Below, one piece after another: positions 12,424 to 33,292 of a stretch of DNA of 64,000 bases (its first letter is position 1; each line of letters begins with the position of its first letter). The position numbers were made by a program, and so were the translations under genes. The DNA is from a virus, in the IMG/VR virus record IMGVR_UViG_3300012950_001127, positions 18,822 through 82,821 of that record. One strand, given 5' to 3'. Below the pieces are notes generated by a model. The model was not told the origin of the DNA and ran no database searches. It saw only the letters and a program-made list of their open reading frames with translations.

Positions 12424-14525
12424 TTCCAACAAAAGTTGAATTAGAAAACTTTTTTTCACACAAAAATAGCACTGTTGATTTTTCAGATTTTTCTTCTGCA
12501 TTGCTCATAGGCAATACAGAGGGCGATTACGGAAAGTCTAATGGCTCTGGGAAAAGTGCCATATTTGAATCAATTTTATGGTGCCTTTTTAACAAATCAA
12601 GAGTCTCTATGATGGATGATATAATCATGTGGGGATCTGCCACATGCTTTGTAGAGTTAGAGTTTAATCATGATAATAATTTATATAAGGTAAGAAGGTC
12701 CAGATCAAGGATGAACTCAACATCATCTGTTGAATTTTGTATATCTGATCCAGTGGAAGGCTGGCAAGACTTATCTTGTTCTACTGCGGGAGATACAAAT
12801 AAGTTAATCGAAGAAATTACAGGTCTCAATTATAAAACTTTTATAAACTCTGTCTATTTTAGACAGAATGATATATCTGAGTTTGCAGAAGCAGAAGCTT
12901 CCAGAAAGAAAGAGATTTTAAAATCTATTGTAGATATATCCAGATGGGACGACTACGATAAGGAGGCTAGGAAAAAGGCTAGAGATATCAAAATAGAGTG
13001 CAAAGTGTTGCAGGCATCTGTAGATGGATATAAAGATTTGGTTGAAGAGCTTGCGAAAACAGAGGGGGAGTTAGGATTATTAAAAGACAGCATAGAGAAG
13101 CTGGCGGCTAAGAAAGCCTCAGTTGTGGGACAGCTTGATTTGCTGAGTGGCGAATATTCTTTGATAAAAGAATCTTTGGATACAGAGACATACGATAAAA
13201 TTATTGAAAAAATTTCTTCTTTAAAGAAAGACAAAGAGCGTGCCGCTAACCTCTTAGGCGAAGAAACCGCTTTGATAGTTAAATATGAAAAAGATAAGAA
13301 GGCAATAGAGAATGATATTGACAATCTTTCAATATCAATAAAAAATCTTCTTGAAGAAGAGGTGCCTACAGGAATTGTTGATTCGCTTCGCAGTGAGCTA
13401 ACGACGCATAAGTCTAGCGTAGCTTCTTCTAAACTAATTTTAAGTAATTTAAACAAGATTGATCTAAGCAGCGGTGCATGTCATGTGTGTGAGCAGAATA
13501 TTCCTGAAACTCTTAGCCAAAAGTTATCAAAAGAATATAGAGAAAGAATTGATGGTCACAAGAAAAGCGTCGGAGTTTGCAAAGAAAGCATTGTAAAGAT
13601 TGAGGGCAAAATAGAAAAGTGGCTTGAGAAAGAGAAGGGCAATTCTAAGATAAAAGAGGCAAATGCTAGCATTGAGCCGTTAGAATACAAGCTAAGCCTT
13701 GTAAAAGAAACTCTAGATAAACATGTAAAGGAAAAAAAGGTTCAATCTAATAAGCTAGACAATATTAAGTCTGAATTAAAAACAAATATAGAAATATTAG
13801 AATCAATTAAAAATGAAAATTTTCAGAATATAAGATCAAATATTCAAATCTTAAAGGATGAAAAAGAAGTTTTGTTAAAATCCATTGCTGAAGAAAATAA
13901 AAAGATTGGAAGGCTGCAGGAAAGAGAAAGCTCTTTGAGCTCTAAGAAGGATGCTATGGAAGATAATAAGAAAAAATTAAATGAGAAGCTAAAGAGCGTT
14001 GCATTGTTTGACAAATTGGCAAGAATGTTTGGCAAAAACGGAATACAAACAATTCTTTTAGATGCTGTGATTGAAGATTTGGAGAAAACTTCTAATAAAA
14101 CTCTTTCGTCAATTTGCAACGAACCTGCAGTTATAACGCTAGAAACACAGCGTCCTGGTGCAGATGGAACGTCTATCGTTGAAACTTTGGACTTAAAAGT
14201 ACGTAAAGATGGGTGTTTGCAAAACTTTAAATCTCTTAGTGGCGGAGAAAAGTTTAGAATTTCCTTGGCGTTGCGGATAGCCCTTAGTGAAATATCCTCA
14301 AGATATGGCGGATCTTCGTTAGAATTTTTGTTGTTAGATGAAGTAAATTCGCCCTTAGACAGATTTGGCGTTGAAACTCTTTTTATAAATGTAATAAAGT
14401 CATTAGAGGACAAATATAAAATACTGGTTATTACTCACGATGAAGGGCTGAAAGAAAGATTTGATAACGTTATAGATGTAACAAAGGTTAATGGGGAAAG
14501 CCAAATAGAATTTATAGTTAGATAG
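12420..14525 (+). CDS. sbcC: SbcC/Rad50-like ATPase (T4 gp46 type)
   Basis: A 701-residue SMC-like ATPase. It shows the Walker A loop GKSNGSGKS (about 38-46), a Q-loop region (VYFRQNDIS), long coiled-coil arms on either side of a zinc hook CHVC (about 353-356), the ABC signature LSGGEKFRISLALRIAL (about 606-622) and Walker B EFLLLDEV (about 636-643) with a D-loop (SPLDRFG) and H-loop (VITHDEG). It is shorter than cellular SbcC, like T4 gp46. It forms the end-processing complex with the SbcD-like protein immediately upstream. Confidence 0.94.
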   Translation: MIPTKVELENFFSHKNSTVDFSDFSSALLIGNTEGDYGKSNGSGKSAIFESILWCLFNKSRVSMMDDIIMWGSATCFVELEFNHDNNLYKVRRSRSRMNSTSSVEFCISDPVEGWQDLSCSTAGDTNKLIEEITGLNYKTFINSVYFRQNDISEFAEAEASRKKEILKSIVDISRWDDYDKEARKKARDIKIECKVLQASVDGYKDLVEELAKTEGELGLLKDSIEKLAAKKASVVGQLDLLSGEYSLIKESLDTETYDKIIEKISSLKKDKERAANLLGEETALIVKYEKDKKAIENDIDNLSISIKNLLEEEVPTGIVDSLRSELTTHKSSVASSKLILSNLNKIDLSSGACHVCEQNIPETLSQKLSKEYRERIDGHKKSVGVCKESIVKIEGKIEKWLEKEKGNSKIKEANASIEPLEYKLSLVKETLDKHVKEKKVQSNKLDNIKSELKTNIEILESIKNENFQNIRSNIQILKDEKEVLLKSIAEENKKIGRLQERESSLSSKKDAMEDNKKKLNEKLKSVALFDKLARMFGKNGIQTILLDAVIEDLEKTSNKTLSSICNEPAVITLETQRPGADGTSIVETLDLKVRKDGCLQNFKSLSGGEKFRISLALRIALSEISSRYGGSSLEFLLLDEVNSPLDRFGVETLFINVIKSLEDKYKILVITHDEGLKERFDNVIDVTKVNGESQIEFIVR

Positions 14526-14580
14526 TTAGATCCGTTTTAATATGGTATGCTAATTATCGCAGATAAGTTATGGAGAGATC

Positions 14581-15456
14581 ATGATAGTATTAACTATGAC
14601 AGAGAGTTCGGTTGAGCTTATTTCTGGCAGCCCAGAGTATGTTGCCTTTTCCTCTAGCGAGCCAGCTAGCATCTACTATACCCTCGACGGATCTGCGCCC
14701 ACGGAAGAATCCCTGATTGCTGTGGGAAGAGTATACCTGCCTTCAGGTGGGGTAGCTTTTTCTATTAAGGCTGTTGCTATATCGGCAAGTGATAGTTCGG
14801 CAGTTTTAGAGCAAGAATACTCTCCAGACTCTACGGATTTAAATGGGCCAAGGCATATTGGGGAAGAGGGCGTTTTGGTTATGCCTTATGGAGAGGACGC
14901 TGTTGATAGTCTGTCTTACGATGCGAGTGGAGATCCGGCTCAAGAGGTTGCAAAGAGCTTTGATGATTTAGATATAAAGGTCTCCAGGGTTAATCGCGGT
15001 GGAGTTATGCTAGATAAATACAAAACCTCTGTATCTTTTGTTAACTTTGCAGAAATTTCCTCTAAAGCAAAAGAGACAATAACAAGCACTCCAAATAATA
15101 ATGTTGACTTTGATCCTACGGCTAGAGTTATTGTGATAGACGGCTCCACGGACGAAAAAAAGCAAGAACAAGTTGTCAAGATAGTAAATCGTCCCTATAA
15201 TAATCTTGACCCAGTTAGCAAATTTTACGATGAGCAAATTGGGAATTCAGAACAAGTTATTACAGGAAACTATGTTAGAAGCTTTTATAATCCCAGCACT
15301 GGAATATATACATCTTTTTATTGGGAAAGTAGAGAATCTAGGTGGTTAAAATCTATTCAGAGAATAGAGCACAAGCCCTTGGCTGTATCTTTTTCGTCTG
15401 AAAAAATGTTTGTATATAGATGGATTCAAGATAGAGCTATGAGTCAAATTTTTTAG
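14581..15456 (+). CDS. Protein with chitobiase/hexosaminidase C-type beta domain
   Basis: A 291-residue protein. The N-terminal ~75 residues fit the CHB_HEX_C_1 beta-sandwich: SASIYYTLDGS-type motif is seen as SIYYTLDGSAPTEESL (about 31-46), followed by FSIKAVAIS. In chitinases and adhesins this domain is an accessory module. The remainder is unrecognised and contains acidic, Ser-rich segments and a C-terminal region with many aromatic residues (YTSFYWESRESRWLKS). It could be a virion protein although its neighbours are recombination genes. ATG follows TATGGAGAG. The 55-nt gap upstream holds a TGGTATGCT string that is only a weak promoter candidate. Confidence 0.6.
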   Translation: MIVLTMTESSVELISGSPEYVAFSSSEPASIYYTLDGSAPTEESLIAVGRVYLPSGGVAFSIKAVAISASDSSAVLEQEYSPDSTDLNGPRHIGEEGVLVMPYGEDAVDSLSYDASGDPAQEVAKSFDDLDIKVSRVNRGGVMLDKYKTSVSFVNFAEISSKAKETITSTPNNNVDFDPTARVIVIDGSTDEKKQEQVVKIVNRPYNNLDPVSKFYDEQIGNSEQVITGNYVRSFYNPSTGIYTSFYWESRESRWLKSIQRIEHKPLAVSFSSEKMFVYRWIQDRAMSQIF

Positions 15457-18371: not shown

Positions 18372-18395
18372 CGTTAGTTAAAATTGGAAAGTTTA

Positions 18396-21300
18396 ATGGA
18401 TTTTGTCAAATTAAAGCAAGTTCTTGCAGATGTATCTGCCGATTCTTTCGGTGATTTTGTAACAATATTAAGTGAATTCCACACGAAGATACAAAACATA
18501 ATAGATATTCATGAGGCATTGGCCGATGATAATCCGCAGGCACGCGACGAGTTTTTGCCAAGACTTATAGGCGCATTTGAGGAAGGTGGGCTTATAGAAC
18601 TTTTGGGTGTTTTAGCCCAAGCCTATGAGGGCGCGGACATTACTTTAGACAATTTAAGCCCATTTGCTAATAAAGCGGAAGAGTTTGTAGAGGCATATGG
18701 CATTGGTGAATTTTTGGCGCAAGATTTTGCCAATATAATTGACAATGTAAACTCCCTGGAGGAAGCGGGGCAAGACGAGGTTCGGGTCGATGAGCCTCTC
18801 GATCCCGAGCCTCTCGATCCTGAGCCTCCCGGTCCCGAGCCTACAATAACCGTAGATGATTTGCTTTCTGGGCAAGTCAGGAAGAGTCGGGGTGGTGAAG
18901 CTCAGCCGAGCGAAGAAGAGGGAGACCCCGAAGAAGAAGAGCCAATTTCTCAAAAGAAAGTAAAAATTTTAGAAAGGCTAACTGTTGAAGAAAATGTAAT
19001 TTTAAATTTAGATGTCTCTGGAACTTTCTTTTCAAAAAGAATAAATAAGGAAGATTACAGATTGTCCTTGGCGGCGGCCCGCCAATCTTCGCAAGATTTG
19101 GATGAACTAAATTTTCACGATGCGTTTTCTGGGCTCCCTGCGCTATATGCGATAGATGATGAGCAGCACAAGGTTATATTTGATCTTAATGCTGCAAATC
19201 TTACAGAAAAAGCAGCAATTGATTTTATTGCGCTTTTAAATCGCGAATATTCCAGATTATCTGGAGAGAATATTAGTTATTCTAAAATTCATATACTTCA
19301 AGTAAAAAGAAAGAAGTTGGCAGAAAAGTTAGATGATTTTGTTGCCGCAATAAAGATTAGAGATTTGAAGATTAAAGATCTTCTGTCTAAATTCCATCAC
19401 ATGGGGTATGCGATGGAAGGTTATAACGAAATTAAATTTAGTTTAACTAAACTTATAAAAGATCCGAATACCGCGCTTAGTAAAGAATTAAATAATTTAA
19501 TTATGAATGTGGTGTTTATTGATATACGAAGCGAGATTGTTAAGTACAAATTCTCTAGAGCAGCTAAAGCAAATAAGGCCCTTTTAGAAGAGGTCATGCA
19601 AGCTTTTACTCCTATATTTGAAGAGCGACTATTGCAAGCAATTGTATCGTTCTTTTCTCCAAGTATTGCGCTTAATAGTGAAGTTATTTTTGATCAAGAG
19701 CAATTTTCTCAAGTATCAAGGACTAATGAGTTTTCTATAGCAGCATTTTTATCTTCACATGGAAGCTTGGGTCGGCAGCTTGTTCAGCAATTTGCATACG
19801 AACAAACTGTTATGAGCAAAAAAAGAGGGTGGAGTTACATGTCTTGCCCGACTTGTAATAAAGAAATATATACAGCTCCTTTTACAGGCTCTTACAAAGG
19901 CTCGGGCAGAGGGGCAGAGATTCATCCGAGAGAGCATTCTGATTACGAAGAAGAAAGATATAGCCTGCTTAGAAAAGATGGAACAATAATTACTCTTGAT
20001 CAATTAAATCAACATGGAGAGTTTCCTCCTCCAGAGGGTTATTTAGAGGGAGCTACATGGTTAGAGATAGAGTCTATGGTGGCCTCTCCACGCAGATCAA
20101 AGCATATAGAGGGAGTGGCGCGGCGCTCTCTAGCATTAAGCGCCATGGGCGGAATCCCTGTGCATAGCAGCAAGCAGGGTGGTTATATTGCAAATTATAA
20201 GTACCTTTGTCCTTATGGAGACACTTCTGCGCCAAGAGCCGGCTTAGAAACAATGCAAGCAGGAAAGCCGGCAAGATTTCAGTGCGGTCTTTCTTTGGAC
20301 CCAACCCCCCTGTTGAGCGGTGATCAAAATATTAGACCAGAACACTTGCAGGCCACAGGGGCATCTTTGGGATATTCTATTGAGCAATATTCTGCCACTT
20401 TAGACGAGGTGGCGCAAAGTGGCACAATAAGTGAGGAACAAAAGCAAGATTTTCTTGATGAGTTAAATCGACGGCGAGGTGGTGGGTGGAAATTTTCTAA
20501 CACTTACTTTAGATGCCCTTGCAAAGTTGATATACCAGAAGAGCATTATGGAAAAGAAAATTTTGATATTTCTGATTATGAACGCTATTCGTATATAGCC
20601 TCTCCAATTTCCGGCCCCATAACAGAGGCGGCCGTAGCAAGTAATGATGTTTATCTGCCAAGAAGCGCAGACGGATCAATTGCCCCTATTCAAGAAGGCT
20701 CTATGAGCTATTTGATCTGCGGAGCTTTAACTTCATTATCTGCTTTTATAAGAAGTCCGAGTGATCTTAATTCTCTTTCGGCTATATTAACAGAGCTAAT
20801 AAGCAAGGCTTCTGCTGAGCCAGATGGTTTGGCAGCGAATAAAGTTTTGGCAGACTTTATAAATACTTTAATTTATTTAGGAGTTGATGTTTCAGATATT
20901 CTTCCGCTAATGTCTAGAAACGTTAGAGTTGCAGCGGATATGTTTGAAGCAGAAAGATTTAAAAAAATAGCCCATTTGTTTGCAGTGGCTATGGCCTCTC
21001 CCCAGAATTTGTCTGGGTTGTCTAAAATAACTGAATCTTCTACAATAGATATTATTAAAAACATTGGCCTTCGATGCAAATACGGTCATAACTTTACAGT
21101 TGGGGACTCTGTATTTTTCGGAAGAACACATACTGGCATAAATATGCAAAATGTAAAGAAGAATGTTTACTCTTGGAGAGACGTAATAGATTCCGGGATA
21201 TTGTTTTCTGAAGGATTAGAGAATTTTAAAAATACATTGAAGTTGCGCACAGCAGGCAAGGGTCAGGGTAATCCGTATATTTTACAGGGTAATCGAAGCG

Positions 21301-24300
21301 GTTCTTCTCCTACAGATTATGAAGGCTGGGGCGGCAGAAGTATATATGACATTTATTTCTTACACCCAGAGACAGGGGCCGAATTAGCATTTCATCATCC
21401 TTCAAGAACTTATATATGGGGATCTGAGGGCGGAAAGCCATATACATCTGCACGAGTTAGAGAAACAAGAGATAGAGACTCAGTAATAGAGACCCACTTA
21501 AATTCTCGAAAAGATATTGAGGGCGGAAGGGAAGACGGAGCGCAGGCAGGAGCGGATAAGATGGGCAGAGCGGCTGCTCAAGCAGGAGCGGCAGATAGCA
21601 CTGTTTCTAGTATTATGGAAATGGCAAAAGACAGTCTTGGAAAGCTGTCAACACCAGCGTCCCCAAATAAGGGAGTTAATCAACTAACGGTCCCCTTAGG
21701 AAGCATGTTAAAGTCTTATTTGACATGCGTACATGACTGGCTAGACCTCGCTACCTCTTTGGACGCCGAGGGCGTTATAGCCGGGAAGTCAGAGGTTTTG
21801 GGTACAGATGAAGAAAAGATGGCGAAACTTTTAGATGAGTCAAGAAATGTAATGTTATCTGTAATTGAATATGCTGAGGGGGAGATTACTCCTTTTGCCA
21901 ACACTGTTATAGATATGTCTTTACAAAGATTTAAAGAAAGCTATTTAAATAGAGTATTTAAATTAGACTTAAGATTTTTAAATCAATTTGGTCTAATAAA
22001 TACTGAAAATATAATACATAATATTATTTATTCTATGTTAAATACTTTATATGATGCTAGAAAAAATGAAAACTTGGGAGCGGATGAGAAGTCTGGAGCA
22101 AAAGAGTGGTACGCTAATTATAGAGGAGACCTACTGTTAAGCAATATGCAGATAAACTTTAATACTTTAGTTGACGCTGGAGTTGATCTCAATTCTTTAA
22201 CAGATAATTTTAGAGAAATTCTCGCCCCCACTGCTTTGACGGCAAGAGAGATAGAGGGTATATATTCTCCTATTTCTGAAGAAGGGTATAGTTTAAAAGT
22301 CACAAAGATGAAAGGGAAAGAGTTCATGGGCATGATTATGCTGGCATCCTCTGCTCTTTATATTGCTGATTCTATTTCAAGGATTTATAATTTGTATATG
22401 AAGTATCCCAACACAAGTAACTACATAGGGTATGATATCGGATTAGATTTATCTTCTATAGATAAAGTTCTAGCCTTAGACAAAGAAAGTGTTGAGAGAA
22501 TAAATATAGGATTTGATAATTTAGAATTAGAGGGAAGCCCGCATTATAATCCCATAGAATTTATAGAAGATTATTTTGATAATATACTTAATTGTATAAA
22601 AGCTTTAGAAGGCGACTTAGTTAGAGTAAAGGCCGCATGTGTATCTTACAAGTATATACAGCGTGCTTCTGATATTATAAGAGAACGATTAAATAATATA
22701 ATTGTTTCTGAGCCAGAATCAGAAGAGTCTATTAAGGCGAGTCGCATAATAAACAGTGTCATGGTAAACTTGCCAGTTACAACTATTGACTTGAATAGTG
22801 GAGGAAAATACGCCAATTATTATTCAAGCTCTGCAGAGGCAGGGGGAGTTCCGCATGGATTAATTCCATTGTTTGGAGCAATGCTGGTGACGCATAAAGA
22901 TAAGCAGTTGGCCAATGTATATTATCCCGTGTATATATTAACAACAGTCAAGGGTGTACATCATAATTTTAATATAGACATCCCTTTGCCTGCGTCTAAA
23001 AAGTATATGTATGTTTTAAGCAGCAAGGCTCTTCCCGGCTCTAATGAGCTCGCAGATATTTCAAACACTCTGCCAGAAGTTTATAAGGATAATGGATGGG
23101 CGGCTTATGAGGTTTTGGCGTCAGAATGGAATTTTAAAGATTCGAGGTCAAATGCTGGACTCTCTGAAGGGGTTAGCTACATATACCATCCTGGCACAAT
23201 TCAGAATTTTGATGAAAATAATAATGTCTCTTCTTATTCTAATATAGAGTCCGGGTTAGATACGAGTCTCGGGATGTTCTTGGGATCGTTATGTCCCAAG
23301 GAGGGTCGCGGCCTTTGCTTTCCTCCCGTTCCTTTGATGCCTAATAACATTGGCGTGCCAATTCCATTTGGCTATGTTGACAGAATGAAAGAGCCTGCAA
23401 CGAGAAAGGCCGCCTTCCCTATTTTAGACGTAAGAATTCCAGTTCCAATTAAGATAGGAGATTATATAGAGAATATTGACGTATCTGACTTTTTGTTAAG
23501 AGAGCCCCATGAGGTTGCGCTATCTTTGATAAAAGAAATTATGAAAAATTACAAGTTATATCAAAAAGATCTAAGCTCAATTAACATTAGAACTCCAGAG
23601 GGACGAAAGCAGAAAGAGAGAGTAAAGGCGCAATATAAAGAAATTATTTCAAAATTAAATTATATGTATAGATCTTTGCCGTTTGCTACAGAAAATAAGC
23701 GAAGCGCTACGGCGAGAGCAAGGCAGAATATAGTTCAGTTTGAAGAAGGAACACAACACTCAGAGCGCTTTGGAGCAAGAGCTTCTGTATATATGCCTAT
23801 GATTGATTGGGTTATTATGCACAAGATGATAACCTCTCCTGCATTTGGCCCAGAATTCGGAGGGCATAATCTTTGGAGTGTTAGCGAAGGAAGCGCAGAG
23901 GGAGACACAGAGGTTGCGATAAGAGCTGTTAAAAGCGGATTAGAAAGATTTTTAATTGAATTAAATGGATTAGAGCGGTTAGCAGAATTATTAAGTGCAA
24001 GGCTTAATACAGATATAAGTCCAGAGGATTTGCTAGATCCGCAGAAAAGACTATTTAACTCAGGAAAGATAACGAAAAAACAATGTAAAGAATTATTTGG
24101 ATATGATTTCAGTTATACTGATACTTCTGTAGAATCTAGTGTTATGATGGGGGCCCATGAAGATGAATTTGGATCAGAGTTGTTTTGGATTAGAAGCAAT
24201 ACGGGAGAGGCTTTAGAGGAAGTTCAGGTGGTTTCTGATTCTGAAATCTCTAAGGCTGGTACTACTAATATATTTAGAAATTTTCGCTCTTGGGCAATGT

Positions 24301-24761
24301 CCCCAGGAAGGTACTACCCTATAGGCGTTGAGCGGAATGTAAGCTCTAGAACTGGAGACCCCGCTGCTAGAATAAAGATATTAAATACTATATTTCCAAG
24401 TCAAGATTATGCATCTAGATTGGCAGACGTGCAAGATTTAAGCTCTGAAGCTCTATTGGATATAGAGCAATTATATGCGTATGAGGTGTTACTTGGAAAT
24501 CCTAGAAAGCAAACATTTTATCCGCCACCAGCTACGGACAGGGTATCGCATATATCTATTGTAAGACAGGCGGAGGCAATTAGTGATTATTTGAGAGAGT
24601 ATCATCAAGCGGAGATGACTAGATCTTGGGATATAAAAAAGTTAAGTTTTTATAAAAATAATCTTATAAAAAAATCTAAAATTGACAAGATGGCTTTTGA
24701 TGTTAATGGTATAATGATAGGTACAAGGCTTATGGCCCTGTGGAATTATTTAACACGTTAA
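18396..24761 (+). CDS. Giant unknown protein with several cysteine (zinc-ribbon-like) clusters
   Basis: About 2121 residues, the largest protein in the window, with no recognised catalytic domain. After a helical N-terminus there is an acidic Pro-rich linker (DPEP repeats, about 132-150), then a helical region. Cysteine pairs appear at SCPTCNKEIY (near 19845), LCPYGD...FQCGLS (near 20205-20290), FRCPCKVDIP (near 20510) and RCKYGHNF (near 21075), spread over some 400 residues, suggesting zinc ribbons. A segment near 21540-21600 is Gly/Ala-rich. I prefer ATG 18396 over TTG 18384 because TTGGAAAG is then a ribosome site. It could be a large virion or transcription-associated protein; no RNA-polymerase beta' DFDGD motif is seen. 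Confidence 0.75.
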   Translation: MDFVKLKQVLADVSADSFGDFVTILSEFHTKIQNIIDIHEALADDNPQARDEFLPRLIGAFEEGGLIELLGVLAQAYEGADITLDNLSPFANKAEEFVEAYGIGEFLAQDFANIIDNVNSLEEAGQDEVRVDEPLDPEPLDPEPPGPEPTITVDDLLSGQVRKSRGGEAQPSEEEGDPEEEEPISQKKVKILERLTVEENVILNLDVSGTFFSKRINKEDYRLSLAAARQSSQDLDELNFHDAFSGLPALYAIDDEQHKVIFDLNAANLTEKAAIDFIALLNREYSRLSGENISYSKIHILQVKRKKLAEKLDDFVAAIKIRDLKIKDLLSKFHHMGYAMEGYNEIKFSLTKLIKDPNTALSKELNNLIMNVVFIDIRSEIVKYKFSRAAKANKALLEEVMQAFTPIFEERLLQAIVSFFSPSIALNSEVIFDQEQFSQVSRTNEFSIAAFLSSHGSLGRQLVQQFAYEQTVMSKKRGWSYMSCPTCNKEIYTAPFTGSYKGSGRGAEIHPREHSDYEEERYSLLRKDGTIITLDQLNQHGEFPPPEGYLEGATWLEIESMVASPRRSKHIEGVARRSLALSAMGGIPVHSSKQGGYIANYKYLCPYGDTSAPRAGLETMQAGKPARFQCGLSLDPTPLLSGDQNIRPEHLQATGASLGYSIEQYSATLDEVAQSGTISEEQKQDFLDELNRRRGGGWKFSNTYFRCPCKVDIPEEHYGKENFDISDYERYSYIASPISGPITEAAVASNDVYLPRSADGSIAPIQEGSMSYLICGALTSLSAFIRSPSDLNSLSAILTELISKASAEPDGLAANKVLADFINTLIYLGVDVSDILPLMSRNVRVAADMFEAERFKKIAHLFAVAMASPQNLSGLSKITESSTIDIIKNIGLRCKYGHNFTVGDSVFFGRTHTGINMQNVKKNVYSWRDVIDSGILFSEGLENFKNTLKLRTAGKGQGNPYILQGNRSGSSPTDYEGWGGRSIYDIYFLHPETGAELAFHHPSRTYIWGSEGGKPYTSARVRETRDRDSVIETHLNSRKDIEGGREDGAQAGADKMGRAAAQAGAADSTVSSIMEMAKDSLGKLSTPASPNKGVNQLTVPLGSMLKSYLTCVHDWLDLATSLDAEGVIAGKSEVLGTDEEKMAKLLDESRNVMLSVIEYAEGEITPFANTVIDMSLQRFKESYLNRVFKLDLRFLNQFGLINTENIIHNIIYSMLNTLYDARKNENLGADEKSGAKEWYANYRGDLLLSNMQINFNTLVDAGVDLNSLTDNFREILAPTALTAREIEGIYSPISEEGYSLKVTKMKGKEFMGMIMLASSALYIADSISRIYNLYMKYPNTSNYIGYDIGLDLSSIDKVLALDKESVERINIGFDNLELEGSPHYNPIEFIEDYFDNILNCIKALEGDLVRVKAACVSYKYIQRASDIIRERLNNIIVSEPESEESIKASRIINSVMVNLPVTTIDLNSGGKYANYYSSSAEAGGVPHGLIPLFGAMLVTHKDKQLANVYYPVYILTTVKGVHHNFNIDIPLPASKKYMYVLSSKALPGSNELADISNTLPEVYKDNGWAAYEVLASEWNFKDSRSNAGLSEGVSYIYHPGTIQNFDENNNVSSYSNIESGLDTSLGMFLGSLCPKEGRGLCFPPVPLMPNNIGVPIPFGYVDRMKEPATRKAAFPILDVRIPVPIKIGDYIENIDVSDFLLREPHEVALSLIKEIMKNYKLYQKDLSSINIRTPEGRKQKERVKAQYKEIISKLNYMYRSLPFATENKRSATARARQNIVQFEEGTQHSERFGARASVYMPMIDWVIMHKMITSPAFGPEFGGHNLWSVSEGSAEGDTEVAIRAVKSGLERFLIELNGLERLAELLSARLNTDISPEDLLDPQKRLFNSGKITKKQCKELFGYDFSYTDTSVESSVMMGAHEDEFGSELFWIRSNTGEALEEVQVVSDSEISKAGTTNIFRNFRSWAMSPGRYYPIGVERNVSSRTGDPAARIKILNTIFPSQDYASRLADVQDLSSEALLDIEQLYAYEVLLGNPRKQTFYPPPATDRVSHISIVRQAEAISDYLREYHQAEMTRSWDIKKLSFYKNNLIKKSKIDKMAFDVNGIMIGTRLMALWNYLTR
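18792..18842 (+). repeat. In-frame 15-bp tandem repeat
   Basis: About 3.4 copies of a 15-bp unit (GAGCCTCTCGATCCC and close variants) encode the acidic Pro linker EPLDPEPLDPEPPGPEP in the giant unknown protein. Confidence 0.9.
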
Positions 24762-24785: not shown

Positions 24786-25061
24786 ATGAGTGTGGTTAAG
24801 ATTTTTAATGAAGATAATGGTCAGTCTGAAAATACTACGTGGAATATTGATGACGTAAAAGAATATGTTAAACAATATCTTGTATATGAATTGCAGATAA
24901 AAGATCTGCAAGAGTCTAGAAGAGAATGGTCTAATGATTTTTTAAAAGCGAAGAGTCTTCCAAAGAAAGAGCTTACGCAGGCCTTGGGGTCAGCAAAGAA
25001 AGACATTGATATGGAAGTGGTAAATGAGATATATGATAACATAATAGGAATGTTTGAATGA
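24786..25061 (+). CDS. Small acidic hypothetical protein
   Basis: A 91-residue charged, helical protein. It has WNIDDVKEYVKQYLVYELQIKDLQESRREWSNDFLKAK followed by a Lys-rich linker and a C-terminal helix. The W-x-x-DF-x-KAK pattern with an amphipathic helix resembles small phage replication accessory proteins, but I cannot name it. TTGGAGG lies 7 nt before the ATG. Its end overlaps the hydroxylase-like gene by 4 nt (ATGA). Confidence 0.6.
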   Translation: MSVVKIFNEDNGQSENTTWNIDDVKEYVKQYLVYELQIKDLQESRREWSNDFLKAKSLPKKELTQALGSAKKDIDMEVVNEIYDNIIGMFE

Positions 25062-25543
25062 TGATATTTGCCCTGCATTTTTTGCTTGGCTATACATACG
25101 GTCTTTTCGCAGAGTGGTTTATTCATAAAGAAATTTTACACAGATACGGCAAAGGAAAAAATGCTATTTTTAAATTTCATTGGAGTTCACATCACAGTGA
25201 TGCCAGAAGATTTGAGTTTATAGATCCTTCCTATAATGAGAGTTTGCTTGCATGGAACGCAGCAACGAAAGAGTTGCTCTCTTTATTATTTTTAGTTGCA
25301 ATCCATACTCCTGTTTTATTTTTCGCCCCAGGAGCCTATGCTGCTCTTATTTTTTCAGTAATTGAATATTACTTTAAACACAGAAAGGCGCATAAAAATC
25401 CAGAGTGGGCAAAAGAAAAATTAGTGTGGCATTTTGACCATCACATGGGTAAAATACAGGATATGAACTGGGGTGTTCGCAGGGATATTGTCGATAGGCT
25501 TTTGGGAACAAGAGTAAAATACACGACAAAAAATAATTATTAA
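25058..25543 (+). CDS. Membrane di-iron hydroxylase, fatty acid hydroxylase/sterol desaturase family
   Basis: A 161-residue membrane protein carrying the histidine boxes of the superfamily: H23 and H28 (IHKEILHR), H41/H45/H46 (HWSSHH), H108/H112 (HRKAH) and H125/H128/H129 (HFDHHMG). These ten histidines would bind two irons for O2-dependent hydroxylation or desaturation of a lipid. Hydrophobic segments lie at 3-20 and about 73-103, fitting a short two-hairpin topology. Family members are usually over 200 residues, so this is a compact version. It sits between a small unknown gene and the DNA polymerase, overlapping upstream by 4 nt. Substrate is unknown; it is a good auxiliary-metabolism candidate. 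Confidence 0.75.
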   Translation: MMIFALHFLLGYTYGLFAEWFIHKEILHRYGKGKNAIFKFHWSSHHSDARRFEFIDPSYNESLLAWNAATKELLSLLFLVAIHTPVLFFAPGAYAALIFSVIEYYFKHRKAHKNPEWAKEKLVWHFDHHMGKIQDMNWGVRRDIVDRLLGTRVKYTTKNNY

Positions 25544-25564
25544 TATTTAAAATTGGAGCTTTAC

Positions 25565-28500
25565 ATGGCCTCTGGACCTTTTGTTTCTTTACATAATCAT
25601 ACAGAGCTTGGCAGCCCACTTGACGGAATGAATGATGTTCGTGATCTTTTTAGAAGAGCGAAAGAAGTAAATCATCCAGGGGTTGCGGTAACTGACCATG
25701 GAACGCTCACTGCTCTGTATGACTCTTGGAAGGCTAGCCAAGAATTTGGGGTAAAATTAATCCCTGGAATAGAGGCTTATTTTGCTGATGACTTAAACAT
25801 AAAGAAGTCATATCACTTAGTTCTTCTCGCTAAAAATTCTATAGGATATAAAAATATTTTAAAGTTAAATTATTTAGCTTTCCAGAATCAAGTTTCTGGA
25901 TACATGGGAAAGAAGACGCCTAGAATTTCTTGGGAACATATTGAGAATTATAACGAGGGAATAATTGCCTTAACGGCTTGTTCTAATGGTCTTGTTGCCA
26001 AAACTTTAATAACTGATAATGATGAAGAAAAAGCTTTATGTCATATATCTAGATTGAATGAAATATTCTATAATAGATTATTTTTAGAGTTACAGCCACA
26101 TGCCTTATATGATGTTAATAAGCATGGAAAGGAAGTAAATCAGCAAAAATTAAATGAATCGCTTATTAGAATATCTCACGATATGAAGATTCCTTATGTT
26201 ATAACTTGTGATGCTCATTATAGGGATAAAGAGGCTGCAAAATATCATGACTTTATGCTTGCAATAAAAGATAAAAAAGCAGTTGACGATCCAGATCGCT
26301 TTAGATATGGAGTCCAAGATATGTACCTAAAGACACATGAAGAAATTATAGATTTTTTTGGGAAAGATATTGCTACAGTTGGTATGGAAAATTCCATTAA
26401 AATAATGAATGCTTGTGATGAGCCGAGCTATATAAAGCCACGAGGAGCTATGCTTCCTGTTTTCTCTGTTTCTGAAGAATTAGATTATAAAGAGTTTAAA
26501 GAGTGGAAGGGTGAAGTTGGATCTAATATAGCGGAAGATAAAGCATATCTTCGGTTCAAGTGCATTGAGGGGTTCAAGAATAAGCTAACACACTTAGATA
26601 AGGGAGATAGAGACGAATACTGGGAAAGGGTGAAAACTGAATTAGCTGTATTAGAGGAGAAAAATTTTTCGTCTTATATGTTAATTGTTGCAGATTATGT
26701 TAATTGGGCTAAAGAAAGAATGCCGGTAGGGCCAGCGCGTGGTTCTGCGGCGGGGTCATTAGTAGCCTACTTGACAGGCATAACAAGCGTTGACCCCATA
26801 GAGTATGATTTAATCTTTGAAAGATTTCATAATAATCAAAAGAAATCTTTTCCAGATATTGATTCTGATTTTTCTGATCCAAGTATAGTTAAAGATTATA
26901 TTAAAGATAAGTATGGATCAGATCGGGTTGCTTCCATTTCTAATTGGAGCACTCTATCGCCACGCGTTGTTATAAAGGATGTAGCAAGAAGTTTAAGGTT
27001 AGGTGGAGATAAGTCTTCTGCTTTTAAAATAGCAAACGCTATAACCTCTATCATGCCAGATGCAGACACCCTTAGCGAGGCAATGTCGAGTAGTCGCCAA
27101 TTATCTGATTATATGAAGCAATACCCAGAGTTATATAAGTATGCTTCTAAGTTGCAAAATCTTACCAGAAACTGGTCCATGCATGCCGCAGGAGTCGTTA
27201 TTGGAGAGGATGCCCTATATGAGTCCATTCCCTTGAGAATAGACAAGGAAGGACACATTATAACGCAATGGGAAAAAACAAGGTGTGAAGAGAATGGTCT
27301 TATAAAGATGGATCTATTGGGACTTAAAACTCTTACTGTTATAGATAATGCTTTTAAATTAATTCACGAATCTACAGGGGAAAGCTTATCTGTAAATGAT
27401 ATAGATATGAAGGATCAAAGGGTTTATGAGATGATCGGGAAAGGCAAGACTATCGGGCTGTTTCAATTAGAATCTTCTCTTACTCCATTTTGCATACGGC
27501 TTAAGCCAAAAAATATAGAAGATATATCTGCAATAAATGCTATAGGCAGACCTTCGTGTAAGCCGGCAGAGAGAAGGAGATATGCTAAGCGTAGGCTCGG
27601 GGCAGAAAAAACAGTATATGATCATCCAAGTTTAAAAAGAGCATTAGAAAAAACTTATGGAGTTTTGGTTTATGAGGAGCAAGCTATGATCATTGCACAA
27701 GATTGTGCTGGATGGGATCTTAATCAGGCAGATGCTTTAAGAAAGATTAGTAAATTAAAAGGAAAAGATCAAGAGCTTGTTTTGCGTACAGAGGCAAATT
27801 TTACAAAAGATTGTATAGAATATAGCGGCATGTCATATGAAGTAGCGTGCAAGATTTGGAAAACATACATAGAACCTCTTGGGGGGTACGCTTTTAATAA
27901 ATCTCACTCTATATCTTATTCTATAATATCTTTTTATACTGCTTGGTTAAAATATCATTACCCTTCTGAGTTCATGTGCGCTTTATTAAACTCAGAAGAC
28001 CCAAATAGCGATAAGGCTCAAGAGTATTTGAGTGAATGCAGATCTATGAAGATTCAAATTAAACCTCCAAATGTTAATGATAGTGTTGGGCCTTATGGCG
28101 TGCTAAAATCAGGAGAGATTGTCACAGGACTTTCTGCCATTAAGGGCGTGGGCGAAAAAGCTATTAGCTCTATAGTTGCTAATCAGCCTTATGTTGATTA
28201 TCCTAATTTTTTAATGTTAAATGAAAGTAGAACCGTTGGGAAGACTGTTATTCAGTCTTTGTCCAAAGCTGGTGCTTTGGATTGTTTTTCTGGCGTAAGA
28301 AAAGATATGCATGATAATTATCAAAAATATAGATCTAAGGCCAAGGCGGTTTTCAAAAAGGCAATAGAGTCAAAAATATTTTTACAACACCCCTCTTTGA
28401 AGAAAGTTCCAAGTGATCGCAAAGAAGAATTGTTTAAAGAATTTGGCATAGTAAATAATTCTACTGAGTATCATAAGATAATGAGCTCTATTGAATTTTC

Positions 28501-28936
28501 TAAATCTGAAGAAGATTGGGATAGAAAGAAAAGGCTTTTGTTTGAAAAAGAGTCTCTGGGCAGACCTATAAGCGGAAGTTTGCACGAGGTATTTAAAGGA
28601 TTCTTCTCTGGAGGCTCTCTTGTGACGCCATTATCTCATGTAAATACTTTAGAGGCATCCTCTAAGGTTAAAATTGAAGTAATTATATCAACAAAGCTTA
28701 AAGAGTTTAAAATAAAAAATGGCAAAAACATAGGTAGAAAGTTTGCTAAATATTTGGTCGAAGATATAAACGGGGATACTTGCGGATTAACCGTATGGGC
28801 TGATGACTATGATAGATATAGAGCCATATTGAAAGACGGAGTTCCAATAAAAGCAATATGTAGAGTTAATGAGTATATGGATCAGAAAGATTTAGCGCTT
28901 TCTGCGTTAGAAAGAGTTTATGGGAGAGAAAGATGA
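25565..28936 (+). CDS. dnaE: DNA polymerase III alpha subunit (DnaE-like)
   Basis: A C-family replicative polymerase of 1123 residues. The PHP domain starts at once (FVSLHNHTELGSPLDG, TDHGTLTA, later YVITCDAHYRD), with metal-binding His/Asp largely intact, so it may proofread. The polymerase core has GPARGSAAGSLVAYLTGIT, the catalytic aspartates in PDIDSDFSD (about 430-438) and KMDLLGLKTL. A helix-hairpin-helix (GLSAIKGVGEKAISSI) and a C-terminal OB-like domain (KIEVIISTKLKEFKIKNGKN...) follow. The beta-clamp motif was not identified. I use ATG 25565: TTGGAG at 25553-25558 is the ribosome site. No epsilon exonuclease or clamp gene is in the window. Confidence 0.96.
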   Translation: MASGPFVSLHNHTELGSPLDGMNDVRDLFRRAKEVNHPGVAVTDHGTLTALYDSWKASQEFGVKLIPGIEAYFADDLNIKKSYHLVLLAKNSIGYKNILKLNYLAFQNQVSGYMGKKTPRISWEHIENYNEGIIALTACSNGLVAKTLITDNDEEKALCHISRLNEIFYNRLFLELQPHALYDVNKHGKEVNQQKLNESLIRISHDMKIPYVITCDAHYRDKEAAKYHDFMLAIKDKKAVDDPDRFRYGVQDMYLKTHEEIIDFFGKDIATVGMENSIKIMNACDEPSYIKPRGAMLPVFSVSEELDYKEFKEWKGEVGSNIAEDKAYLRFKCIEGFKNKLTHLDKGDRDEYWERVKTELAVLEEKNFSSYMLIVADYVNWAKERMPVGPARGSAAGSLVAYLTGITSVDPIEYDLIFERFHNNQKKSFPDIDSDFSDPSIVKDYIKDKYGSDRVASISNWSTLSPRVVIKDVARSLRLGGDKSSAFKIANAITSIMPDADTLSEAMSSSRQLSDYMKQYPELYKYASKLQNLTRNWSMHAAGVVIGEDALYESIPLRIDKEGHIITQWEKTRCEENGLIKMDLLGLKTLTVIDNAFKLIHESTGESLSVNDIDMKDQRVYEMIGKGKTIGLFQLESSLTPFCIRLKPKNIEDISAINAIGRPSCKPAERRRYAKRRLGAEKTVYDHPSLKRALEKTYGVLVYEEQAMIIAQDCAGWDLNQADALRKISKLKGKDQELVLRTEANFTKDCIEYSGMSYEVACKIWKTYIEPLGGYAFNKSHSISYSIISFYTAWLKYHYPSEFMCALLNSEDPNSDKAQEYLSECRSMKIQIKPPNVNDSVGPYGVLKSGEIVTGLSAIKGVGEKAISSIVANQPYVDYPNFLMLNESRTVGKTVIQSLSKAGALDCFSGVRKDMHDNYQKYRSKAKAVFKKAIESKIFLQHPSLKKVPSDRKEELFKEFGIVNNSTEYHKIMSSIEFSKSEEDWDRKKRLLFEKESLGRPISGSLHEVFKGFFSGGSLVTPLSHVNTLEASSKVKIEVIISTKLKEFKIKNGKNIGRKFAKYLVEDINGDTCGLTVWADDYDRYRAILKDGVPIKAICRVNEYMDQKDLALSALERVYGRER

Positions 28937-31103: not shown

Positions 31104-31640
31104 ATGATAAGAATAATTGGTTTAGACATATCTTCTGCCGTTATAGGCTGGGCTTTACTGGAATATGATGACAAGTCTGTTCATTTGATTGAACATGGCT
31201 GCATTAAGCCTCCAAAGAGCTCTAAGGGAACCCTTACATACAGGGTCAATGACGCTTATGATGAAATATATGATTTTTTTAAATTAAAAGCCCCAGATAT
31301 TGTTGCATCTGAGGCATATGTGAATAAATTCACAAGAGGGAGAAGCACGGCAAGGACAATAATTGTATTGTCAGTATTTAATGAGATTTCATCACTTGCG
31401 TGTTTGCGTGCGCTTGAATACGAGCCATATAAATATGCAGTTATGACAATCCGATCTAAGTTATCAAAACTTGCTGGATATAGGATAATATCCAAAGATG
31501 ACTGCTTTGAATTTGTAAAGAAATATTTCCCATCATTTAAAGTAAAAACAAACAGAAATGGTAAAATAGCAAAAGAGAGTTATGACGAAGCTGACGCGAT
31601 TGCGGTTGCTTTAACTCATATAATTAAGAAGAGGGAATAA
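31104..31640 (+). CDS. RuvC-like Holliday junction resolvase
   Basis: A 178-residue RNase H-fold nuclease. The first strand IIGLDISSAVIGWALLE carries D8, the next acidic residue is E70 in IVASEAYV, and the C-terminal SYDEADAIAVALTHII holds the last acidic pair near 161-164, as in RuvC-type phage resolvases. It cuts branched DNA before packaging or during recombination. The start must be at or before D8, so ATG 31104 is secure, yet it has no Shine-Dalgarno and begins right after the terminator T run. The stop overlaps the GroEL ATG by one base (TAATG). Confidence 0.85.
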   Translation: MIRIIGLDISSAVIGWALLEYDDKSVHLIEHGCIKPPKSSKGTLTYRVNDAYDEIYDFFKLKAPDIVASEAYVNKFTRGRSTARTIIVLSVFNEISSLACLRALEYEPYKYAVMTIRSKLSKLAGYRIISKDDCFEFVKKYFPSFKVKTNRNGKIAKESYDEADAIAVALTHIIKKRE

Positions 31641-33292
31641 TGAGTAAAGATTTGACTTTTGGAAAAGATGCACGAAATAAGATTTTCTCAGGCGTTGAGA
31701 AGCTGGCCTCAACTGTTGCCGTAACAATGGGGCCTCAGGGAAAGAATGTTATATTTGGAATATATGGAGGAGCTGCAGCTCCATTGATAACAAAAGATGG
31801 GGTATCTGTCGCAAGACAGGTTACTTTGCATGATCCGGTTGAAGAATTGGGGTGTCAATTGGTAAAAGAGGTGGCTGCAAGAACTGCGGCTGTAGCCGGA
31901 GACGGCACTACAACAGCGACCGTTTTGACACACGCAATTTTAAAAGCAGGTAATGAGTTAATCACAAACAATTATAGCCCCCTTCTGTTTAGGCGGGGTA
32001 TTGAATGGGCTACAAGCGAAGTGGTTAAGGTTTTAAACCAAATGGCAACAGAGGCTGATAGTCTTGAGACTATTAAAAACATTGCAACAATTTCTGCAAA
32101 TAATGACGAAGAGATGGGAAGGAATATAGCAGAAGCGTTTAACGCGGTCGGGCTTGACGGAACTGTTGCGGCAGAAGCACATCCTGGAGCGGCAACCTCT
32201 GTGCGATACACAGATGGTATAGAGCTTAAGTCAGGATATATTACAACTGCTTTTTTAACGGAGGCTGGGCAGACAGAGATTTGTCTTGAATCATGCAGAG
32301 TCTTAATATGCAATCAAGAGATAACCAACCTAATAGGATGGCTAGACTTATTAAATGAAGTTTCTGACAAAGGGGTGCCGTTGTTAATTTTGTCTAAGAC
32401 ATTAAAGCAGGAAGCTTTGACGACCATTGTTACAAATAATAAGCTTGGCAGAATAAAGGCAGTTGCTGTTGAGATTCCTGCCTTTGGGGCGAAGCAAGAT
32501 GAATGGCTAGAGGATTTGGCCTCATTGGTTGACACGGTTGTTTGTGGCGATAAGACGGGCCACTCTATCAGGGAATTGAAGCTTGATGATCTTGGATTCG
32601 CAGAGAAAGTCATTGTGGGCAAATACGCTACTAAAATAATTGGAAGCAGAAAAAACAAAGAGAGAATAAGCGAGAGGCTTAGCTTTTATTCGGAAGACGC
32701 TCAAAAGCTCTTGGGAGAAAACGAGCGCCGAGATATACAGAAAAGAATTTCTTTTTTAAATAACAAAGCTGCAGTTATATCGGTCGGATACTCAACGGAA
32801 GTAGAGCTTAGAGAGAAGGGGGATAGGCTCGATGATGCCTTGAGTGCCACCAGGGCCGCCATAGAAGAGGGGGTTGTTGCAGGAGGGGGAGTGGCACTTC
32901 TGAGAGCCTCTAATATGGTTGATTTATCAAAGATAGATGAGAATCTTTTGCCAGCTGTGCAGGTTTTGCTCGGAGCCTGCAAGGCTCCTATGGCGCAAAT
33001 TGTTACAAATGCATATGAGGATCCAGACAAAATAATGAAAAAAGTATTAAAATCAAATAATTTAAATTTTGGCTATAATGCTGCAACTGGTAGCTTTGAA
33101 GACCTTTTAGATTCTGGAGTTATAGACCCCAAAAAGGTAACTAGAATTGCATTGGAAAATGCAGTGAGCGTATCTTTGCTTCTTATTAATACCGAAGCTG
33201 TAATTTCTGATTCGCCAGAAGATCCCTCTGCATGGCAAGCCCCCGGAGGTTGGAGGCCGCCATCAAAAAGTGGATTAAATCACGATTATTAA
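31640..33292 (+). CDS. groEL: GroEL-like chaperonin
   Basis: A 550-residue group I chaperonin. Visible: VTMGPQGKNVIF, the ATP loop AVAGDGTTTATVL (with the catalytic GDGTT), the apical substrate-binding part with IEL-KSGYIT, and AATRAAIEEGVVAGGGVALLRAS near 400 preceded by DRLDDAL holding the hydrolysis Asp. The usual GGM tail is missing; the protein ends with a Pro/Trp-rich WQAPGGWRPPSKSGLNHDY. Phage GroELs are known in some jumbo phages and may fold capsid or tail proteins. No GroES gene is in the window. It is coupled to the resolvase gene (TAATG) and followed 10 nt later by recA with its own AAGGAG. Confidence 0.96.
   Translation: MSKDLTFGKDARNKIFSGVEKLASTVAVTMGPQGKNVIFGIYGGAAAPLITKDGVSVARQVTLHDPVEELGCQLVKEVAARTAAVAGDGTTTATVLTHAILKAGNELITNNYSPLLFRRGIEWATSEVVKVLNQMATEADSLETIKNIATISANNDEEMGRNIAEAFNAVGLDGTVAAEAHPGAATSVRYTDGIELKSGYITTAFLTEAGQTEICLESCRVLICNQEITNLIGWLDLLNEVSDKGVPLLILSKTLKQEALTTIVTNNKLGRIKAVAVEIPAFGAKQDEWLEDLASLVDTVVCGDKTGHSIRELKLDDLGFAEKVIVGKYATKIIGSRKNKERISERLSFYSEDAQKLLGENERRDIQKRISFLNNKAAVISVGYSTEVELREKGDRLDDALSATRAAIEEGVVAGGGVALLRASNMVDLSKIDENLLPAVQVLLGACKAPMAQIVTNAYEDPDKIMKKVLKSNNLNFGYNAATGSFEDLLDSGVIDPKKVTRIALENAVSVSLLLINTEAVISDSPEDPSAWQAPGGWRPPSKSGLNHDY

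Follow-up and report, generated by a model that had tools for sequence, protein, structure and literature searches.

A ten-histidine membrane protein of the fatty acid hydroxylase superfamily encoded in the replication block of a tailed phage

The closest described counterpart of the protein considered here is Scs7p, the yeast ceramide very-long-chain fatty acid alpha-hydroxylase (PDB 4zr0, 4zr1), which is its best PDB match by both profile and fold. In Scs7p each metal is held by five histidines, unlike in SCD1 and AlkB, and SCD1 has a water molecule where Scs7p has the extra histidine (PMC10110569). A real but more distant relative is CrtZ, the beta-carotene hydroxylase of Pantoea and Paracoccus, which, unlike the phage gene, sits in carotenoid clusters.

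Few phage genes act on membrane lipids, and the main precedent comes from cyanophages, which encode lipid desaturases (Roitman et al. 2018, as cited in PMC11480375 and PMC8228385). As far as the citing papers describe them, these resemble the phage hydroxylase in being phage-carried, membrane di-iron, lipid-modifying enzymes encoded by auxiliary metabolic genes, but they belong to the fatty acid desaturase family, i.e., another family of the clan. PF04116 proteins are also found in giant eukaryotic viruses (Mimiviridae and Phycodnaviridae; PMC10598087); these viruses have eukaryotic hosts, and their proteins are weak fold matches to the phage protein (E 0.05 and above) with 16-21% identity. 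In the literature searched, outside of which most subscription journals lie, a query for phage fatty acid hydroxylases returned eukaryotic-virus cases only, and the family is provisionally regarded as undescribed in phages.

The protein and its conserved residues

The window, i.e., the whole stretch of 64,000 nucleotides that was analysed, comes from an IMG/VR virus record of 82.8 kb. Its plus strand contains at 25058-25543 an ORF (start ATG, stop TAA) for a 161-residue membrane protein, which the initial annotation had read as a phage-encoded member of the fatty acid hydroxylase family with ten histidines at named positions. The extent of the ORF and all ten positions proved exact in the sequence, and Pfam, histidine conservation and searches of the PDB by profile and by fold all back the family assignment. 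PF04116 (FA_hydroxylase) matches the protein with 33.3 bits, against a curated cut-off of 31 bits, over profile positions 2-132 of 132. A match to DUF2649 fell below the cut-off of that family and was discarded, PHROGs holds no family for the protein, and phmmer with the single window sequence found no match in the PDB.

The histidines are arranged in four boxes, all on the plus strand and defined in an alignment of 61 members (39 viral and 22 bacterial/archaeal homologues): H23-X4-H28 (HKEILH, 25124-25141), preceded by the invariant E19; H41-X3-H45-H46 (HX3HH, 25178-25195); H108-X3-H112 (HX3H, 25379-25393); and H125-X2-H128-H129 (HFDHH, 25430-25444). Conservation of these histidines among homologues had been named as a test of the assignment, and all ten are invariant in 61/61 sequences. 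Invariance across the 39 viral and 22 cellular members extends to E19, D56, E72, W124, D127, N137, D146, T151 and R152. PF04116 matches 58 of the 61 members at E <= 0.01, whereas PF10520 (the CarF/PEDS1 lipid desaturase family) and the PF00487 desaturase family match none of them.

A second viral scan, which overlaps with the scan behind the 61-member alignment, gave a similar result: 76 of 80 loci fit the strict histidine-spacing pattern and 78 keep all ten histidines. Two loci (L186 and L190) keep the ten histidines with box 1 in the form HX3H. In two identical viral copies (L150 and L152), an arginine replaces H41, and the hydroxylase encoded there is possibly inactive or altered. Between close viral copies, dN/dS is approximately 0.02-0.14, i.e., the genes are under strong purifying selection. 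Taken with the invariance of the histidines and of the other residues, these values argue that the viral hydroxylase genes are functional and constrained. Because of the PF04116 score, the ten invariant histidines and purifying selection, the match is far beyond chance.

An AlphaFold2 model built with the 61 sequences (pLDDT 96, pTM 0.89) contains two long helices (residues 2-32 and 91-113) and, between them, a shorter one (68-82). The short hydrophobic segments noticed in the initial annotation are present, and hydropathy now places them at residues ~2-22 and ~68-105; together with the helices, they leave at most about three membrane segments. Comparison of a predicted structure with fatty acid hydroxylases had been proposed as a check, and the predicted fold indeed matches Scs7p: four Scs7p chains are the sole high-probability matches in the PDB fold search (prob 1.00), at a TM of ~0.6 by query, modest E values (0.013-0.043) and an rmsd above 5 A. 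When the family profile was compared with PDB sequences, Scs7p again came first (4zr1/4zr0, E 7e-4 and 1e-3) as the sole credible relative, in an alignment that spans the first and last histidine boxes and the C-terminal G-V...D...G-T. Both proteins have ten histidines in HX4H, HX2-3HH, HX3H and HX2HH boxes, an acidic residue before box 1 (E[WY]xxHxxxxH) and a C-terminal G-V-x-D-x-G-T signature. At 161 residues, however, the phage protein is far shorter than Scs7p, lacks the cytochrome b5 domain, has fewer membrane helices and is only ~16% identical.

Genomic setting, distribution and relatives

The source record encodes tail fibre, terminase, RuvC, chaperonin, RecA, DnaG-type primase and ThyX domains, and the setting is therefore that of a tailed phage. 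Upstream of the hydroxylase gene lies a 91-aa ORF with no function assigned (24786-25061, plus strand), the end of which overlaps the hydroxylase start by 4 nt (ATGA), as had been noticed initially. This overlap suggests translational coupling of the two genes, and an AGGA stands 8 nt upstream of the hydroxylase ATG. The gene had also been described as lying directly before a DNA polymerase gene, and a DnaE-type DNA polymerase III alpha gene (25565-28936, plus strand) indeed follows after a gap of 21 nt. For DnaE, the ATG at 25565 appears a likelier start than the listed TTG at 25553, because of its own sequence context and the start in a relative. A phage-encoded Cpn60 chaperonin gene (31640-33292, plus strand) belongs to the same syntenic block.

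The nearest viral relative found, at 52% identity, is encoded on a 158.7 kb record that has the same uninterrupted order as the window: the 91-aa gene, hydroxylase, DnaE, five genes, Cpn60 and four further genes. A short similarity within the long upstream ORF adds one gene to the shared block. This uninterrupted order indicates that, in this lineage, the hydroxylase gene is an established component of the replication block rather than a newcomer. In other hydroxylase-carrying phages, DnaE lies elsewhere or none was found, and a special tie to the DNA polymerase across all phages was therefore rejected, as adjacency holds in the lineage of the window and not generally. Hydroxylase-carrying records have a common large-phage repertoire: among the virus records examined, DnaE is present in 14/20 and 10/14, and Cpn60 in 12/16 and 12/14 (24 of 30). 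The gene thus combines viral surroundings with homology to a cellular metabolic enzyme, which is the genomic mark of a phage auxiliary metabolic gene: DnaE flanks it, its record also carries terminase, tail fibre, RuvC, Cpn60 and RecA-type genes, and a second viral record shows the same synteny.

Homologues had been suggested for a search in both phages and hosts, and they occur in both. Scans of viral and genome contigs with the single sequence gave no match, and alignment-guided scans were needed. Once two Acinetobacter homologues had been aligned with the window protein, the scans reached 46 viral loci and, in genomes of bacteria and archaea, 410 stretches. With a richer alignment, 128 IMG/VR stretches were found to encode relatives, many of them on contigs of 100-395 kb. 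Among annotated phages and plasmids, tblastn found homologues in Acinetobacter only and no accepted cultured-phage member. Two matches labelled 'Acinetobacter phage MD-2021a' were rejected as phage evidence, as their contigs carry hisA, hisF, thrB, kup and msbA; such records (e.g., L002, CAKLQH020000003.1) look like Acinetobacter chromosome filed as phage.

Bacterial homologues come from Myxococcota, Marinobacter, Leptospiraceae, Planctomycetota, Acinetobacter and others. Those annotated as 'sterol desaturase family' proteins (Acinetobacter, Marinobacter, Myxococcota and Leptospiraceae) share ~36-49% identity and the same invariant residues with the phage protein, but have longer C-terminal tails (mostly 165-200 aa in total, compared with 161 aa). 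In 38 of the 77 bacterial loci with enough upstream sequence (L052-L131), the gene before that of the hydroxylase is divergent and belongs to the TetR family, whereas in Marinobacter and Acinetobacter the divergent regulator is of the AraC type. This layout is as expected of a regulated, ligand-controlled gene for a metabolic enzyme. A further outcome of the analysis is an uncharacterised family of bacterial hydroxylases, partnered by TetR, that could reveal the substrate.

On trees, viral and bacterial copies are strongly separated, by 2 changes (36 in shuffles) when 44 viral rows are included and by 5 changes (55 in shuffles) with 82 viral rows. A single viral clade is not rejected for the 44-row set (AU test); however, starred branches of the 82-row tree force at least 2 of the 5 changes, and a single viral origin of the hydroxylase is therefore not claimed. 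The window protein belongs to a supported group made up of 22 viral rows and four bacterial ones. Two Myxococcota rows (L056 and L060), which share the ending GVR-D--DR--GTR with it, are among its nearest by path. From these relationships, we conclude that the gene has long resided in phages and has passed between phages and bacteria more than once.

Proposed function and alternative explanations

It is reasonable to regard the protein, with some confidence, as a non-haem di-iron membrane oxygenase encoded by a phage auxiliary gene, which would hydroxylate an acyl chain or another long hydrocarbon and remodel host membrane lipids. The ten histidines fit those of Scs7p, with five per metal. The hydroxylase would be made together with the replication proteins and inserted in the host inner membrane, where the ten histidines would bind two irons at the cytoplasmic face. 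With O2 and electrons of a host donor, the enzyme would then hydroxylate the acyl chain of a lipid, or some other long hydrocarbon, and so remodel the host membrane lipids during infection. Neither a 2Fe-2S ferredoxin (PF00111) nor a cytochrome b5 (PF00173) gene was found in 20 of the hydroxylase-carrying virus records, and for this reason the electrons probably come from the host. An enzyme acting on host lipids is plausible, given the precedent of the cyanophage desaturases. The initial annotation had also suggested a changed susceptibility to other phages, and for this the analysis found evidence in neither direction. As regards the metal, the orientation, hydroxylation as opposed to desaturation, the lipid substrate, the host electron donor and the benefit to the phage, we infer the likely properties from what is established for Scs7p, SCD1 and AlkB. 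We know of no biochemically studied member of this family and, to our knowledge, a ceramide substrate is not expected in most bacteria.

Since hydroxylation and desaturation both occur within the superfamily at similar metal centres, the protein might instead be a desaturase or other oxidase, similar to C5-sterol or plasmanylethanolamine desaturase, which would change membrane fluidity by introducing a double bond in a lipid. The cyanophage desaturases, known here through the papers that cite them, lend this some appeal. It is nevertheless rather unlikely: the two desaturase profiles, PF10520 (PEDS1/CarF) and PF00487, are those that none of the 61 members matches, and the ten histidines are arranged as in Scs7p, not as in SCD1 with its water in place of the extra one (PMC10110569). 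The case for a CrtZ-type carotenoid hydroxylase, which would hydroxylate host carotenoids (e.g., beta-carotene to zeaxanthin) and thus alter membrane rigidity or oxidative protection, is built on size and on the first box. CrtZ is likewise short (~175 aa), has ten histidines, reads HKYIMHG where the family has HKYVLHG, and is related to the family in a profile comparison (92% probability, E 5.5e-7). However, its third box is HX4H, whereas that of the phage protein is HX3H, and it is without the C-terminal N-W-G-V...D...G-T-R of the family, a signature that resembles Scs7p. Moreover, carotenoid genes are absent from the families detected in the virus of the window, and the carotenoid reading is judged improbable.

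More remote is the idea that the fold and metal site have been kept for a role other than lipid chemistry, e.g., binding of O2 or iron in the membrane so as to modulate host respiration or block superinfection. Such a role would be compatible with a place in the replication block and with the lack of a companion redox gene, but catalysis is indicated by the strong purifying selection seen in divergent phages and by the invariant residues other than histidine, acidic ones among them, and we consider the idea very unlikely. A lipid hydroxylase thus remains the preferred reading, and the enzyme probably lets these viruses chemically alter the membrane lipids of their bacterial hosts.

Within this context, a broader proposal is advanced tentatively, at slightly less than even chances: large uncultured phages would widely carry diversified lipid hydroxylases, in some lineages stably within the replication block, and use O2 to rewrite host membrane lipids, a strategy undescribed in the literature searched. 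A small oxygenase under strong purifying selection in more than 100 viral contigs, many of them from large phages, would imply that membrane-lipid oxidation matters for infection in many hosts. Being compact and confidently predicted, the protein also provides a model for membrane di-iron enzymes.

Other genes of the source phage

The long ORF upstream of the block (18384-24761 of the window) encodes 2125 aa and matches neither Pfam nor PHROGs; its one short and weak similarity is to the 1242-aa ORF that precedes the block in the 158.7 kb relative. Besides the Cpn60 gene of the window, the source phage has a second one at L132:1097-2704 (same virus record). Genes for adenylosuccinate synthetase and IMP dehydrogenase are located outside the window in the same virus record (L132:9490-10509 and 13930-15051, respectively), which suggests purine-nucleotide remodelling. 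PurZ, i.e., an enzyme of 2-aminoadenine DNA, was considered for the adenylosuccinate synthetase and rejected: the Asp in WGDEAKGK, which we take to be replaced by Ser in PurZ, is kept, and the enzyme therefore appears PurA-like. Proteins of the window and L132 also include FtsK/SpoIIIE, sigma-70 region 2, HSP20, poly(A) polymerase head and HU domains.
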